Source: Microbacterium sp. LWO13-1.2
GTDB taxonomy: Bacteria; Actinomycetota; Actinomycetes; Actinomycetales; Microbacteriaceae
Assembly (NCBI RefSeq): GCF_038397725.1
Contig: NZ_CP151634.1
Location: forward strand, 992,001-1,056,000
Reading direction: 5' to 3'
Length of the DNA stretch: 64,000 nucleotides
Shown here: in pieces, positions 17,353 through 46,129 of the stretch
Layout of the letters: each line of letters starts with the position of its first letter
Numbering within the stretch: position 1 is the first letter of the stretch
Notes under the pieces: model-generated
Told to the model about the DNA's origin: nothing
Database searches by the model: none
Seen by the model: only the letters and a program-made list of their open reading frames with translations
Program-made: the position numbers and the translations under genes

Positions 17353-18147
17353 TCACACCGACGGCGCGGCCGGTGCCGGCGGCGGATCGGTCAGTGCTTT
17401 CGGCGGTCCCTCGGCCCGGGGCTGGAAGCTCTCGAAGACACCGTAGGCGACGATCCGCTCGGCGAGAGAGTACAGCGGTGAACAGGCGGTGAGAGTGATG
17501 TACCGCTCCCCGGTCTGCGCGCCCGGCATCTGCGGAACGTCGAGCAGCACATCGACAGCGCTCGGCTGCACGTACTCCAGCGTGCGGAATCGGTAGGTGT
17601 ACCAGCCGTCGGGCGTCTCGACGACGATCGCGTCGTTCAACTGCAGCTTGTCGATCTGATTGAACGGCTTGCCCCAGGTGGTGCGGTGGCCCGCCATCGA
17701 GAAGTTCCCGACCTCGCCGGGCATCTTCGAGTCCTTGTAGACGCCGATGCCGAGGTCGTCGAGGGTGCGCGCGCGCGAGGTTCCGCCGTAGATCCCGAAG
17801 TTGTAGTCGGCCCCGAACCGCGGAATGATCATCTGCCCGAACCACTCGGCGTCCGCAGGCGCCGCCGGGATCACCGGCTCGTAGAAGGTGGTGCCGTCTT
17901 CGGCCCTGACGAGCGGCGGCGGGGGCGGAGCCGGATCCTCGGCCAGCTGCTGCGAGATGGCCGCGCCTTCGTCGTTCTTCTGCGCCGCGATGATGATGTC
18001 GCCGATCCACATCTGCCAGGCGACGAACAGCATCACCAGCACGCCGGCCGTGAGCAGCAGCTCGCCGAGAACACTCGTGAACGTCGCACGGCGGCGGGCC
18101 GCACTGCGACGCGTTCGTCGTGTCCCGGACACGGCGGATGCAGTCAT
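17353..18147 (-). CDS. Class E sortase
   Basis: 264 aa. A basic N-terminus and a membrane helix (about 25-47) are followed by a Pro-rich stretch and the sortase beta-barrel. The catalytic triad is present: His in FSMAGHRTTWGK, Cys in TLTACSPLYS and Arg in LAERIVAYG. Class E sortases of high-GC Actinobacteria anchor proteins bearing LAXTG signals to peptidoglycan. Two such substrates are encoded in this window (LATTG at 25.3 kb and LASTG at 44.0 kb). It is upstream of the 51-aa membrane protein and pabA on the same strand. Confidence 0.92.
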   Translation of the reverse strand: MTASAVSGTRRTRRSAARRRATFTSVLGELLLTAGVLVMLFVAWQMWIGDIIIAAQKNDEGAAISQQLAEDPAPPPPPLVRAEDGTTFYEPVIPAAPADAEWFGQMIIPRFGADYNFGIYGGTSRARTLDDLGIGVYKDSKMPGEVGNFSMAGHRTTWGKPFNQIDKLQLNDAIVVETPDGWYTYRFRTLEYVQPSAVDVLLDVPQMPGAQTGERYITLTACSPLYSLAERIVAYGVFESFQPRAEGPPKALTDPPPAPAAPSV

Positions 18148-40308: not shown

Positions 40309-40803
40309 CTACCCGTAGGTATCGCGCGGGCCCCGCCCTGGAACGACTCTGGGACCCCATTTCCAGGAGGGAACGTCCGGTCCGATGAAACGGAGGTTCT
40401 CGACACCTGCGTCCGGGTACCGTCTGCCGATCTCGGTGAGGATCGTCGCGCGCATGAATTGGAGGTTCTTCGCCCAGGCCGTCGAGTCGCATTTGACGGT
40501 CAGGACGCCGTTCTCCAGCGACACGGGCTCCGAGTGCTGGGCCGTGCCGGCGCCGGCGAGATCCGCCCACTGCCGCACGAGGTCTTCTCTTGCGAGCGTG
40601 ATCTGCCAGCCGGAATCCCGGCTGAGCTTGTCGAGCACCGAACCGAGGGCTCCCGGATCACGGCCGGGAGTGAACGGGGCGTTGTCATCATCGTCCGCGA
40701 TGCGGCGCTTGCGCTTCCACGACTTCGAGCTCGGCTTCAGTCCCCGCAGGCGCAGATACGTGGCGACGGTCTCCGGAGTTTCGGCTGCCGATGTATCAGT
40801 CAT
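40309..40803 (-). CDS. DUF721/DciA-like protein
   Basis: 164 aa. An N-terminal basic segment with RLRGLKPSSKSWKRKRRI is followed by a DUF721 domain, LGSVLDKLSRDSGWQITLAREDLVRQWADLAG and ENGVLTVKCDSTAWAKNLQFMRATILTEIGRRYP. DUF721 proteins of this position between recF and gyrB are DciA homologues, which act as replicative helicase operators in bacteria lacking DnaC/DnaI. It overlaps recF by eight nucleotides. Confidence 0.88.
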   Translation of the reverse strand: MTDTSAAETPETVATYLRLRGLKPSSKSWKRKRRIADDDDNAPFTPGRDPGALGSVLDKLSRDSGWQITLAREDLVRQWADLAGAGTAQHSEPVSLENGVLTVKCDSTAWAKNLQFMRATILTEIGRRYPDAGVENLRFIGPDVPSWKWGPRVVPGRGPRDTYG

Positions 40804-41983
40804 CTACTCCTCCCGGCTGGATCTCTGCGTCCATCGCAGGACGTTCGTCGCTGATGGTGCCCGCGTCGATACGTACCACGTGTGCGTGCAGCACCGCAGG
40901 GATATCCTCCTCCACCGCTGCAGTCACCACCACCTGCTCATAACCCGCGGTCAGCGCGGCCAGCCGCTGGCGGCGGTCCGCATCGAGTTCGGCGAAGACA
41001 TCATCGAGGATCAGCACCGGGTCCCCTGCCGGCGATTCGCTGCGCAGCAGCTCGGCCGACGCCAGTCGCAACGCCAGCGCCACCGACCAGGACTCGCCGT
41101 GCGAGGCATAGCCCTTCACCGGGAGACCCCGCACACGCAGGATCAGGTCGTCGCGATGAGGGCCGACCAGGGTGAGTCCTCGGTCAAGCTCCTGAGTGCG
41201 CTTCGCCTGCAGCGCGGCGCGGAACAGGTCGGCGATCTCGCCTCGGGTATCGGATGCGGCTTCCTCACCCTCTTCTGGATCGCCACCGCGTACGGAGAGC
41301 GCCCATTCCAGTTGCGGCTGGTGATCAGCACCGGCGATCGCCGCATAGGCGGTCGCGACCGGACCCTGCATATCGGTCGCGAGTCGCTGCCTGGCATCGA
41401 TGATCTCGGAGCCGAGGGCGACGAGCTTGTCATCCCACACGTCGAGCGTGGTCAGTCCTTCACCGCGGACGCCGCGGGCGCGCGCCGACTTCAGCAGTGC
41501 GGTGCGCTGCTTGAGCACCCGGTCGTAGTCACCGAGCACGGCTGCCATGCGAGGTGTGCGCTGGATGAGCAGCTGATCGGCGAAGCGGCGTCGGGATGAA
41601 GGGTCGCCGCGGACGATCTGCAGATCCTCTGGAGCGAAGAGGACGACGTGCGCATAGCGGGGGAGCTCATTGATCTTCGACGGTGAGCCGTTGATGCGCG
41701 CCTTGTTCGAGCCCTGCCGGTTGACCTGAACCTCAGCGAGAACCTTGCGCTCCCCGTGCGACAGACGGGCGCGGATGATCGCGAACTCCTGGCCGTCGCG
41801 CACCATCGGAGCATCCGACGACACCCGGTGCGAACCGAGTGTGGCGAGGAAGACGACCGCCTCGGCGAGATTCGTCTTGCCCTGGCCGTTGCGCCCGACG
41901 AGCACATTCGGGCCCGGGTGGAGGGAGAGTTCGGCGGTCGCGTAATTGCGGAAGTCCACAAGGCTCAGGTGTTCCACAATCAC
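40796..41983 (-). CDS. recF: DNA replication and repair protein RecF
   Basis: 395 aa SMC-like ATPase. MIVEHLSLVDFRNYATAEL is the standard N-terminus, Walker A is VGRNGQGKTNL, the signature region is GYASHGESWSVALALRLA, and Walker B is DPVLILDDVFAELDADRR. It loads RecA at gaps with RecO and RecR. In most Actinobacteria recF closely follows dnaN (sometimes with one gene between), but here 2.7 kb of surface-protein genes separate them. Confidence 0.96.
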   Translation of the reverse strand: MIVEHLSLVDFRNYATAELSLHPGPNVLVGRNGQGKTNLAEAVVFLATLGSHRVSSDAPMVRDGQEFAIIRARLSHGERKVLAEVQVNRQGSNKARINGSPSKINELPRYAHVVLFAPEDLQIVRGDPSSRRRFADQLLIQRTPRMAAVLGDYDRVLKQRTALLKSARARGVRGEGLTTLDVWDDKLVALGSEIIDARQRLATDMQGPVATAYAAIAGADHQPQLEWALSVRGGDPEEGEEAASDTRGEIADLFRAALQAKRTQELDRGLTLVGPHRDDLILRVRGLPVKGYASHGESWSVALALRLASAELLRSESPAGDPVLILDDVFAELDADRRQRLAALTAGYEQVVVTAAVEEDIPAVLHAHVVRIDAGTISDERPAMDAEIQPGGVDD

Positions 41984-42099: not shown

Positions 42100-43911
42100 T
42101 CAGGGGAGCGGGCCGTACAGTGCCGGAGTCGTGCGGGCGTGCGTCGCCTGCTCGAACGCGTACCCCAGGCCGAGGAGCGGACCCTCGTCGAAGTCACGCC
42201 CGAGGAACTCGAGGTTCACGCCGGCGCCCGGGTTGTCTTCGCCCTCGATCGTCTGGCCCATCGGCACCGTCACCGCAGGCATCCCGGTGTTCGGGCTCAG
42301 ACGCATGTTCGTCGCCTGCGTGGTGAACGCGTTGGTGCTCGGATAGATGATCGCGTCGAGGTCCCACGCGTCCATCAGCTGCGTGACGAGTTCCTTGCCC
42401 GCGGCGAGCTGCAAGGAGTGCGTCCCGTTCTCACCCGCCCAGGCTTGGTAGGTCTCCTCCGAAACCGCATTGCGCGTCTGGTAGACCGGCTCCCGCGAGG
42501 TCACGTAGTTGCCGGTGGCGAGGATGTCCGTCAGAGTCCGCGCCTCGACGTCGGCACCGAGGTGAGTGGCGATGTACGTGTTGAGATCGTGCAAGAACTC
42601 GTTCGTCGACCCGGACGGCTCGGACAGGACCGCAGCGAAACCGTCTGGGGGAGTGATCTCCACCACGGTCGCTCCCTGTGCGCCAAGAGCAGACGACGCC
42701 TCATCGAACAGCCGAACGGTTCCTGTCTGAGTTCCCACCATGCCTGCGATGTAGCCGATGCGCGCACCTTCCAGAGAGTTCTCGTCGAGGAATGATGTGT
42801 ACGAGTCCGGAACCCGACCCTCCTGTTTCGCGGTCACAGGGTCTGCAGCGTCGATGCCGACGACGGCATCGAGGGCGACGGCCGCATCCGTGACGGATCG
42901 TGTCAGCGGTCCGCCGGTGTCCTGCGACAGTGCGAGAGGAATGATTCCGTCGCGGCTGGCAAGACCGACGGTGGGGCGCACCCCTACGAGCTGGTTGAAC
43001 GACGACGGAACCCGGATGGACCCGCCGGTGTCCGTTCCGAAACCGATGCCTGCGAGGTTGGCCGCGATCGCCGCCCCGGTGCCGCCGCTGGATCCTCCCG
43101 CGCTCTTGGTGGTGTCATAGGGATTCGCGACGAGCAGGGAGGATCCCGGCGCCTGGAATGACGAGAACTCCGAGGCGAACCCGTAGGCGAACTCGTCGAG
43201 ACTGGCCTTCGCGAGGATCACCGCGCCCGCGGCACGCAGACCTTCGATCATCTTCGCGTCCGCGGCCGTCTGATTCTCGTTCCAGCATCCGCAACCACCC
43301 GTCGTGACCATGTCGACGGTGTCGTAGTTGTCCTTGACCGCGATCGGTATTCCGAGGAGCATGCTCGTCATGCCCTCGACCGAGCGCGTGGCATCGGCTG
43401 TCGCTGCGGCAGCAAGAGCCTGATCTCCTACCGTGATGATGGAGTTGAGTGCACGGGTTCCCCCGGGAACAATCGTGCGATCGTAGGCCGCGATCCGATC
43501 GATGTAGTGCTGGGTGAGCTCGACCGAAGTGGTCACACCCGCATTCATCGCCGCCTGCATGTCGATCACCGATGCTTCGATGATCTCGAAGGCACCGTCG
43601 TCGTAGATCATTCGATGTGAAAGTGCGACCAGATCGACGACTGTGAGGATTCCGTCGAGGTTCGTGTCCACGACAGCGAGTTCCTGCCAGCCGGCGGACG
43701 CTTCGGTGAGACCGAGCGACGCTGCAGCGAGATCGAGGTCGGCCGTGGTGACCTGCGCATCTCCGGTCAGATCGAGTTCGGTATAGAAGGGCGCGAGCAT
43801 TGCAGCGTTCGCGGATTCCGATGCCGACGCGGGCGCCATCGTGAACGAGGTCGCCGCGATCGCGCAGCCGATCGTGAGAACAGTCGTGCAACGAATCGTG
43901 CGGATCTTCAT
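42100..43911 (-). CDS. Secreted amidase-signature enzyme with N-terminal dockerin-like domain
   Basis: 603 aa. A signal peptide (about 1-31, ending APASAS) precedes two dockerin-type EF-hand units: D47-LTGDAQVTTA-D58 and D82-TNLDGILTVV-D93, each with ligand-compatible residues at loop positions 1, 3, 5, 9 and 12. The amidase-signature domain follows, with catalytic Lys193 (GIPIAVKDNYD), cis-Ser in SAGGSSGGTGAA (about 274-275) and nucleophile Ser298 in GTDTGGSIRVP. ATG at 43911 has AAGGACC upstream. An alternative ATG at 43965 overlaps the stop of the preceding gene (ATGA). It probably hydrolyses an amide outside the cell and docks to the cohesin-like protein encoded next to it. The substrate is unknown. 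Confidence 0.85.
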   Translation of the reverse strand: MKIRTIRCTTVLTIGCAIAATSFTMAPASASESANAAMLAPFYTELDLTGDAQVTTADLDLAAASLGLTEASAGWQELAVVDTNLDGILTVVDLVALSHRMIYDDGAFEIIEASVIDMQAAMNAGVTTSVELTQHYIDRIAAYDRTIVPGGTRALNSIITVGDQALAAAATADATRSVEGMTSMLLGIPIAVKDNYDTVDMVTTGGCGCWNENQTAADAKMIEGLRAAGAVILAKASLDEFAYGFASEFSSFQAPGSSLLVANPYDTTKSAGGSSGGTGAAIAANLAGIGFGTDTGGSIRVPSSFNQLVGVRPTVGLASRDGIIPLALSQDTGGPLTRSVTDAAVALDAVVGIDAADPVTAKQEGRVPDSYTSFLDENSLEGARIGYIAGMVGTQTGTVRLFDEASSALGAQGATVVEITPPDGFAAVLSEPSGSTNEFLHDLNTYIATHLGADVEARTLTDILATGNYVTSREPVYQTRNAVSEETYQAWAGENGTHSLQLAAGKELVTQLMDAWDLDAIIYPSTNAFTTQATNMRLSPNTGMPAVTVPMGQTIEGEDNPGAGVNLEFLGRDFDEGPLLGLGYAFEQATHARTTPALYGPLP

Positions 43912-43961
43912 CGTGGTCCTTACGCGATCGGGGGTGTGGGCGGTGCGGGCGTCGAGTGAGG

Positions 43962-44693
43962 TCATGACTTCACCGACCGACGACGGAGGATCAGCACGAT
44001 TCCGCCTGCTGCAGCAGCCAGGGCCAGCGCCGCAGCGACGATCCACGGAGCTGCCTCCGCTCCTGTGCTCGCGAGTGGATCCGTTTCCGCGGGTGGGGGA
44101 GTCGACCCGTTCGACCCGGATCCTCCGGTGCCTCCTCCGCTGCCGGGGTCAGTGCCTCCTCCGTCATCTCCGCCGGAGATGACGGTGCTCGTATCTGCAC
44201 CGGGCTCGACATCGGCGGACGCTCCTGCGGAATCGACGAGGGTTCCACTGAGCAGGGTGACTGCCGCGTCTCCCGGTGCGAGGGCCGTGAACGTCAAGGT
44301 CACGAGAGACTGGGCGCCTGACAGACCTGGTGAAGTACCCAGTCGCGTGGCCACCGCTGAGAGGACACCGTCTGCGAGCGTCGCCGATGAGAATCCTCCG
44401 ACGGGGAAGACCTCGCTGCCGTCGACAAGCGCGAGGAGTGCAGGGTCGAATCCGATCGTGAGCTCGTAGGCGTAGGCGTCTACGAGGCTCTCGGCCGCGA
44501 CGGTCACCGTGATCGTCTCGCCGACACTGACCTTCGGCCTGTCAGCGGTGATAGTGAGGTTGTTCTCCGGAGCGGGCTCCGTTTCGGCAGAAGCGGGGGA
44601 TGCGACTCCCAGGGTCAATACGGATATGGCTGTTGCGGCGAGGAAGGTCGAGATGAGACCTCGGGCGCCGCGGATGAAGGTGTTCTCCGGCAT
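43962..44693 (-). CDS. Surface protein with cohesin-like domain and LASTG sorting signal
   Basis: 243 aa. A signal peptide (about 1-36, ending SPASA) is followed by a beta domain (about 45-160) with the cohesin pattern: DRPKVSVGETITVTVAAESL, AYELTIGFDPALLAL, FSSATLADGVLSAVATRLG and LVTLTFTALAPGDAAVTLLSG. A Gly/Ser/Pro linker leads to LASTG (207-211), a membrane helix and RRRSVKS. LAXTG suggests anchoring by the class E sortase. The gene precedes the dockerin-bearing amidase, possibly with an ATGA overlap, so the two products likely assemble on the cell surface. The cohesin call rests on pattern recognition, not a profile search. Confidence 0.78.
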   Translation of the reverse strand: MPENTFIRGARGLISTFLAATAISVLTLGVASPASAETEPAPENNLTITADRPKVSVGETITVTVAAESLVDAYAYELTIGFDPALLALVDGSEVFPVGGFSSATLADGVLSAVATRLGTSPGLSGAQSLVTLTFTALAPGDAAVTLLSGTLVDSAGASADVEPGADTSTVISGGDDGGGTDPGSGGGTGGSGSNGSTPPPAETDPLASTGAEAAPWIVAAALALAAAAGGIVLILRRRSVKS

Positions 44694-44910: not shown

Positions 44911-46053
44911 TCAGCGGAGAAGAAGGTTGGGCTGCAGCAGGTACTTGAACGAATCCAGGCCGGCCTGCTCCACCGACGTCTGGCTGGTGATCAGCACCGG
45001 GCTGAGCTTGTTCGCGTTGTCGCTCGACGTGAACGTCACGCGGACGAATTCGCTCTTCACGGCACCGAGCGCCTCGATCAGGTACTGCGGGTTGAGCCCG
45101 AGAGTGACGTCGTCGCCACCGGAGAGGATCGCATCGACCGACTCCGATGCACGAGCGTGCTCATTGCCGGACGCGTCCATCGTGACGCTTTCGCTGGTGA
45201 ACGTGAACCGCAGCGGAGCGGCTCGGTCCAGCACCAGCGACACACGGCGAACGGCCTCGACGAGGTCGGCCGTGTTCACAACCGCGTAGTGATCGGTCTG
45301 CTCGGGGAACAACCGGCGTACGGGCGGGAAGTTGCCCTTGATGAGCAGCGACGTGACGGTCTTGTTCCCCGCCGTGAACGCGATGATCTCCCGCTCACCT
45401 GCTCCGGAGAACGCGATCTGGATGGTGCCGGCGTGACCGAAGGTCTTTCCGACCTCGAGCAACGTGCGCGCCGGAACGAGAGCGGCCTGTTCGACGGCGG
45501 CGCCGTCCCACGGGATGTCGCGCAGCGACACCCGGTAGCGGTCTGTCGCGACCAGGCTCAGGCTCTGACCCGTGACTTCGAGCTGCACACCGGTGAGCAC
45601 GGGAGTGACATCATCGCGCGATGCGGCGAAGCCGACCTGAGCGATCGCCGTGCCGAAATCATCAGCTGGAACGACGCCGGTGGATCCGGCGACCTCGGGA
45701 ATCGACGGGTATTCCTCGACCGGCATGGCCGCGAGAGTGAATCGGGCGGATCCGCAGCTGACGGTGATGCTGCCGTCGTCCTCGACTGCGATCTCGATCG
45801 GGGCGTTCGGAAGCCGGCTCGCGATGTCGGAGAGCAGACGGCCGTGAACGAGGATCGTGCCCGGAGTCTCGACCGTTGCTTCGATGGTCGTCCGCGCGGA
45901 TGCTTCGTAGTCGAAGGCCGAAAGTGTGAGTCCGGAACCATCCGCCTCGATCAGCACACCGGCCAGGATCGGCTGCGGATTGCGCTGGGGCAGAAGCTTG
46001 ACGACGAACGACACAGCCTCGCTGAAGACATCGCGGTTGACCTGAAACCTCAC
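44911..46053 (-). CDS. dnaN: DNA polymerase III beta sliding clamp
   Basis: 380 aa in three similar domains. The N-terminus MRFQVNRDVFSEAVSFVVKLLPQRNPQPIL and the internal PVLTGVQLEVTGQSLSLVATDRYRVSLR are typical, as is the C-terminal SPVLITSQTS. GTG at 46053 has AGGGAG upstream and fits the family N-terminus. It encircles DNA and tethers polymerase III. It lies directly left of oriC and is transcribed away from it. Confidence 0.97.
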   Translation of the reverse strand: MRFQVNRDVFSEAVSFVVKLLPQRNPQPILAGVLIEADGSGLTLSAFDYEASARTTIEATVETPGTILVHGRLLSDIASRLPNAPIEIAVEDDGSITVSCGSARFTLAAMPVEEYPSIPEVAGSTGVVPADDFGTAIAQVGFAASRDDVTPVLTGVQLEVTGQSLSLVATDRYRVSLRDIPWDGAAVEQAALVPARTLLEVGKTFGHAGTIQIAFSGAGEREIIAFTAGNKTVTSLLIKGNFPPVRRLFPEQTDHYAVVNTADLVEAVRRVSLVLDRAAPLRFTFTSESVTMDASGNEHARASESVDAILSGGDDVTLGLNPQYLIEALGAVKSEFVRVTFTSSDNANKLSPVLITSQTSVEQAGLDSFKYLLQPNLLLR

Positions 46054-46129
46054 GGGTGCTCCCTTGTCGTCGTGCTCTGATGTGTCGTCATCATCCGGTC
46101 CCTGTGCAGGGCTTCCCATGCTAGCCCCA

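Follow-up and report, generated by a model that had tools for sequence, protein, structure and literature searches.

The cohesin-dockerin pair is known above all as the joint that holds together cellulosomes and a small number of other complexes for glycan degradation. Both modules are also established in non-cellulosomal settings; Peer et al. (2009), to go by the title, are said to have catalogued such modules, and the cohesin of Archaeoglobus fulgidus (PDB 2xdh) is a solved example. In Clostridium perfringens, NagJ and NagH (PDB 2ozn and 2jh2; also 2vo8) represent non-cellulosomal cohesin-dockerin pairs of glycoside hydrolases. In this study we analysed a stretch of 64,000 nucleotides from Microbacterium sp. 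LWO13-1.2 (contig NZ_CP151634.1, positions 992,001 to 1,056,000; hereafter the window), in which two neighbouring genes encode a predicted wall-anchored cohesin protein and an amidase bearing a candidate dockerin. What is new in this locus is the apparent one-plug, one-socket variant that would serve an amidase. PMC12997984 describes five C. perfringens proteins with one cohesin each, all of them with a glycoside hydrolase domain, as well as the mucinolysome, likewise built on cohesin and dockerin, in which peptidases bear dockerins and a scaffoldin has a sortase motif.

The upstream gene of the pair (P0001; 43962..44693, minus strand, as are all features located below; ATG start) encodes a protein of 243 residues. 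Its residues 1-36 (44586..44693) were recognised by eye as a signal peptide with a basic start, a hydrophobic core and an ASA end, and residues 47-171 (44181..44555) matched the Pfam Cohesin family (PF00963; 47.8 bits, cut-off 24.1). The domain is followed by a Gly/Ser/Asp/Pro-rich linker (residues 172-206; 44076..44180), the sorting motif LASTG (residues 207-211; 44061..44075) and a hydrophobic segment with a basic tail (43965..44060), a layout also present in most relatives, and the C-terminus matched the NCBIfam LAVTG-type sorting domain NF058582 (32 bits vs 27). The preliminary description of this locus had proposed a signal peptide, a cohesin-like domain and LASTG for this protein, and all three were recovered; the cohesin, assigned there by pattern, gained the profile match, and its beta-sandwich fold was found in the predicted structure of a relative. 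The class E sortase noticed in the same window lies at 17353..18147 and matched NF033747 with 224.4 bits (cut-off 160). The features of a class E substrate, i.e. an LAXTG motif with a hydrophobic segment and a basic tail in a genome with a class E sortase, are therefore all present here. A search of the source genome (4.0 Mb, single contig) gave one match each for the Pfam cohesin and the sortase family (PF04203), and the family profile, applied up to E = 10, detected one dockerin of this kind.

The downstream gene (P0002; 42100..43965) encodes 621 residues when counted from the start within ATGA (43962..43965), where the stop of the anchor gene overlaps a possible start of the amidase gene, or 603 residues from a second possible start codon (43909..43911) with AAGGA just before it. 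Its beginning is signal-peptide-like, and two calcium-type loops lie close to the N-terminus, within a candidate dockerin module that makes up the first 66 residues of the modelled stretch (43603..43800). The loops DLTGDAQVTTAD (loop 1; 43738..43773) and DTNLDGILTVVD (loop 2; 43633..43668) correspond to residues 65-76 and 100-111 when translation starts at 43965; the EF-hand positions given earlier, residues 47-58 and 82-93, hold provided that the ATG at 43911 is used. In the alignment sets A4 and A6, position 12 is Asp in 16/16 sequences in both loops. Position 1 is acidic throughout A4 (16/16 in both loops, loop 1 with 14 Asp and 2 Glu), and in A6 it is occupied by 15 Asp and one Asn in loop 1 and by 16 Asp in loop 2. 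When 11 relatives were scanned with Pfam Dockerin_1 (PF00404; cut-off 22.9 bits), four passed, in register (P0037, 29.5 bits; P0106, 27.5; L140, 26.3; P0010, 24.9), and of the 120 proteins listed, 23 have PF00404 in their precomputed Pfam annotation. Moreover, the predicted fold of the window's own EF-hand module matched dockerins ahead of other EF-hand proteins. A comparison of the dockerin sequence profile with the PDB returned calmodulins at the top and no dockerin among the 60 listed of 288 matches; it cannot separate a dockerin from an EF-hand and was set aside.

The same protein matched the amidase-signature family PF01425 with 270.5 bits over residues 131-537 of 603 (42301..43521). In 603-residue numbering, the alignment places Lys193 at 43333..43335, Ser274 at 43090..43092 and Ser298 at 43018..43020; from amidase-signature chemistry we take these to be the catalytic lysine, the catalytic cis-serine and the nucleophile. 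All three residues are invariant in the 16 aligned sequences, the window's included, and the triad reported at the outset is thus complete. The nearest solved sequence is the peptide amidase Pam (243.4 bits). The score against the NCBIfam equivalog PRK08137 (peptide amidase-like) was 349.1 bits, below its cut-off of 534, and we therefore count the protein as an amidase-signature hydrolase and do not file it as that peptide amidase. In addition, a GCGCW motif occupies residues 206-210; all 16 aligned sequences have both of its cysteines, which the Nocardioides relative L136 lacks.

The association of the two genes was followed through samples of 99 genomes of the genus (the window's included), 199 of the family, 396 of the order and 396 of the phylum. 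The genus count of cohesins derives from a search with the whole anchor protein rather than with the cohesin-domain profile A3. In the genus, a cohesin was found in 17/99 genomes and a dockerin-amidase in the same 17, whereas none of the other 82 has a dockerin-amidase; this agreement goes beyond chance. The anchor search had matched 27 genomes, and ten weaker matches, none in a genome with a dockerin-amidase, were set aside: eight from the listing (G016, G023, G029, G033, G038, G040, G060 and G086; E 6e-6 to 6.1e-4), which extend over no more than query residues 72-241, for the most part the linker and the sorting tail, and six of which lie in frames of 1,600-1,810 codons, and two (G076 and G083) in which the 14 kb read hold no cohesin/amidase pair. 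In the family sample, 16 genomes have a cohesin and 16 a dockerin-amidase, with both in 15; one unpaired dockerin lies at a contig edge, and the unpaired cohesin is a weak match with an internal stop (G173, 27 bits), which was set aside. The order sample yielded dockerin-amidases in 20 genomes from five families. In the phylum sample, the dockerin module was detected in one genome (13 candidates scored per listed genome), and Pfam cohesins are rare, with matches in four genomes including the source genome; the other three matches (L207-L209) belong to frames of more than 2,100 codons in genomes of about 2 Mb from one other genus.

When the genus, family and order samples were pooled, with the window's genome counted once, 51 genomes with a dockerin-amidase were obtained, and a cohesin is present in 50 of them, adjacent or fused in 48. 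The cohesin gene lies directly upstream on the same strand in 42 genomes, with an ATGA overlap in 32 and a GTGA overlap in seven, so that the possible overlap pointed out in the window, which is included in these counts, recurs as ATGA or GTGA in 39/42 upstream pairs. In one further genome the cohesin is fused to the dockerin-amidase, and the remaining eight loci, without a cohesin in their 1.5 kb flanks, were traced individually: the gene order is reversed in G246, G722, G900 and G941, with the cohesin directly downstream, the cohesin stands at the end of another contig in G252 and G1053, it is fused at the C-terminus in G864, and G154 gave no cohesin match at E up to 10, its dockerin starting at base 157 of the contig. 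The pairing is near-perfect, and the two genes, which had been suspected of belonging together, do not occur without each other in most relatives. A ribosome-site-like motif, scored with a lenient motif list, stands before a later amidase start in 30/42 of the upstream pairs and before the first start in 19/42, window included, and the overlap may therefore have a role in coupling and not indicate the real N-terminus.

The system extends beyond the Microbacteriaceae, and its cohesin is not always wall-anchored. Among the pair-bearing genomes are ones named Curtobacterium, Leifsonia, Agreia, Frigoribacterium, Microbacterium halotolerans, Cellulosimicrobium funkei, Oerskovia, Oceanitalea and Nocardioides; several of them appear to be the same contigs as those among the 51 and were not added to that count. 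A wider search matched 593 stretches, of which 80 loci were kept in a capped list. Fifteen of the 80 have a strong dockerin, and 13 of these have a cohesin nearby; in the other two, L127 and L130, in which a cohesin was not seen, the locus starts at a contig edge. The 65 listed loci that lack a strong dockerin showed no cohesin, though the flanks of some are short. The paper on Cellulosimicrobium cellulans F16 reports that no cohesin or dockerin domains were found in the translated genome (PMC4562250). Its congener C. funkei U11 has the full pair and C. cellulans JZ5 has a dockerin-amidase at a contig edge, and the present finding, made in these other strains and not in F16 itself, bears on that statement.

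The sorting motif on the cohesin protein varies among the 51 genomes: LAxTG occurs in 31, LPxTG in eight and LSxTG in three, eight have none (two of these being cut by a contig end) and one is undetermined. PMC5148588 reports LAXTG proteins as substrates of class E sortases in Actinobacteria, and the 31/51 share of LAxTG fits that specificity. Other wall anchors occur in Paenibacillus. In Paenibacillus sp. SY21-1 (L140, 3305-7547) the protein next after a cohesin-dockerin-amidase combines a cohesin with three SLH domains; the amidase of this strain carries plug and socket both. The other Paenibacillus amidases scanned (L143, L144, L147 and L149) lack a Pfam dockerin match and have one SLH domain before the amidase domain. 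These SLH versions represent related enzymes that use other wall anchors, and enzyme retention is the thread common to the LAXTG, LPXTG and SLH versions.

Natural fusions account for 18 of the 120 listed proteins, all of which match the dockerin profile, and the count of 18 is biased by the fusion query with which the list was obtained. In the first design (P0003-P0016, one of them named Microbacterium hominis, and G087) cohesin, dockerin and amidase follow each other with no anchor. In the second (P0027, P0028 and P0030, the last of which is named Microcella) the dockerin comes after an LSxTG motif, a hydrophobic segment and another signal-like stretch; all of these share a single open frame with the dockerin-amidase, as though one chain were made and then cut at two places. 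P0049 is anchorless and of a separate design with a different linker, and G864 has the order dockerin-amidase-cohesin-LAVTG.

We consider it likely that a one-cohesin, one-dockerin tether keeps a single amidase at the cell surface, as the preliminary description had supposed; the cohesin match by profile and fold and the co-occurrence in 50/51 genomes, the two points on which the reading could have failed, support it. The domains, the sorting signal, the sortase, the catalytic residues and the pairing are computed results, whereas calcium loading, binding, retention at the surface and, most of all, the substrate are inferred. The anchor protein would be exported, and the class E sortase would most likely join LASTG to the cell wall, so that its single cohesin would face outwards. 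The amidase would be exported separately, and the dockerin near its mature N-terminus, once loaded with calcium, would bind the cohesin of the anchor. Kept at the wall, the Pam-like enzyme might then hydrolyse small extracellular amides, perhaps C-terminally amidated peptides, and product and ammonium would be released close to uptake systems. The substrate is the most conjectural of these steps. The neighbours of the pair are not conserved, and the genome context therefore gives no hint of it.

Several observations weigh against this reading. Dockerin_1 gave no match in the window protein or its genome at E up to 10, and seven of the 11 relatives scanned miss the cut-off (L042, 22.2 bits; P0049, 19.9; L035, 18.8; L044, 15.8; P0027, 14.0; P0058, 12.5; P0030, 11.8). 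The identity of the window's dockerin is therefore carried by the relatives and by the predicted fold, for which the Foldseek E-values are weak (best 0.2). The cohesin, too, falls below the Pfam cut-off in two divergent relatives scanned (19.4 and 18.2 bits), and also in P0049 (21.4 bits). The LPxTG and LSxTG motifs counted above take the place of LAxTG, the cohesin protein ends in a hydrophobic tail without a sorting motif in 4/51 genomes, and the cohesins of G722 and Nocardioides have no anchor at all. The sole model containing both modules, that of the fusion P0007 (predicted template modelling score, pTM, 0.53; amidase part largely of low confidence; used for domain folds only), yielded no readable cohesin-dockerin interface. 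Finally, the M. hominis-type fusions and P0049 hold cohesin and dockerin on one chain with no LxxTG anchor, and their cohesin cannot tether the enzyme in that way. These fusions are the main evidence that anchoring is not the sole role; they may be secondary losses, or the cohesin may also stabilise the enzyme.

The likeliest of the alternatives is one of substrate and does not conflict with the tether: the amidase may act on the cell's own envelope, for instance by deamidating peptidoglycan stem peptides, with the tether keeping the enzyme beside its substrate. The wall-type anchor of the partner, the SLH versions in Paenibacillus and the kinship with a peptide amidase agree with such a role; however, a module present in just 17/99 genomes of the genus would be odd for wall maintenance, and no neighbours are conserved, and we regard an envelope substrate as unlikely. 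It is less likely still that cohesin and dockerin bind for a purpose other than wall anchoring, with the cohesin capping the amidase so as to stabilise or regulate it, either within one chain, as in the fusions, or between chains, as in the two-gene form. The persistence of both modules in the anchorless M. hominis-type fusions and in P0049 speaks for a cap, and the inter-module stretch of about 35 residues, modelled with low confidence, is perhaps long enough to fold back. However, an LxxTG signal is retained on the cohesin protein in 42/51 genomes and Paenibacillus has SLH domains, and attachment thus seems to have been selected in most lineages.

The one-chain lineages (SY21-1 and G864) raise a further idea, to which we give an equally slim chance: amidases that carry both modules may link head to tail, the first held by its dockerin in a wall cohesin and each receiving the dockerin of the next in its own cohesin, into a chain on the surface. 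The two-gene form in the window would then represent a capped one-link form, and the module would be a mobile plug, independent of the anchor, that puts an enzyme on a wall. Least probable is an arrangement without physical contact, in which the EF-hand pair would do no more than form a linker stabilised by calcium, the cohesin-like domain would be a mere beta-sandwich stalk, and co-transcription would be all that joins the two genes; the Pfam miss of the window's EF-hand region and the calmodulins among the best PDB matches of the family profile favour it, and the near-perfect co-occurrence and the Pfam match of the cohesin support the tether reading instead.

In the window the pair is flanked by genes that we take to be dnaN (44911-46119) and recF (40796-41983), with dnaA and gyrBA close by. 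The pair has this position between dnaN and recF also in L031 and L032, and lies elsewhere in the other 14 genus loci. At most four of the 16 genus loci compared have any other gene family in common. Since the loci are mostly elsewhere and no neighbour family is commonly shared, this comparison, which is one of loci rather than of a tree, points to two genes that move together.

Among the papers searched, none was found on a dockerin-amidase, none that mentions a dockerin together with an amidase signature, and none combining dockerin, cohesin, amidase and Microbacterium; four combine dockerin, amidase, cohesin and sortase, in one of them in the context of cellulosomes. Across five families of one order, and outside it, the joint seems to be reduced to one plug and one socket that serve a single amidase, with anchors that range from sortase signals through a bare hydrophobic tail to SLH domains or none. 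The fastener known from the large enzyme machines of cellulose-digesting bacteria may thus serve the cell to keep one enzyme on its surface. If the modules bind, the pairs would lend themselves, as a simple natural example, to the study of how such partners evolve, fuse and change anchors, and would possibly supply a new orthogonal pair for surface display.

Genome profile searches revealed no multi-cohesin scaffoldin and no set of dockerin-bearing glycoside hydrolases, so the locus is not a cellulosome; with one cohesin and one dockerin of this family, it agrees with the minimal, non-cellulosomal version envisaged at first. Pam of Stenotrophomonas maltophilia (PDB 1m21, 5ac3) differs from the window amidase in that its solved chain has no dockerin match. 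The Streptomyces chaplins, as class E sortase substrates with LAXTG, share motif class and sortase class with the anchor protein described here, although the cargo is a chaplin in Streptomyces and a cohesin protein in the window. In contrast to C. perfringens, where the cohesins are carried by glycoside hydrolases, the partner of the amidase here, in a one-to-one pairing, is a protein with a sortase-type anchor. As in the cellulosome, the amylosome and the mucinolysome, an exported enzyme is predicted to be attached through cohesin and dockerin to a surface-anchored cohesin protein; unlike in those systems, the genome has one cohesin, one dockerin of this kind and one enzyme, with no multi-cohesin scaffoldin, and that enzyme is an amidase.

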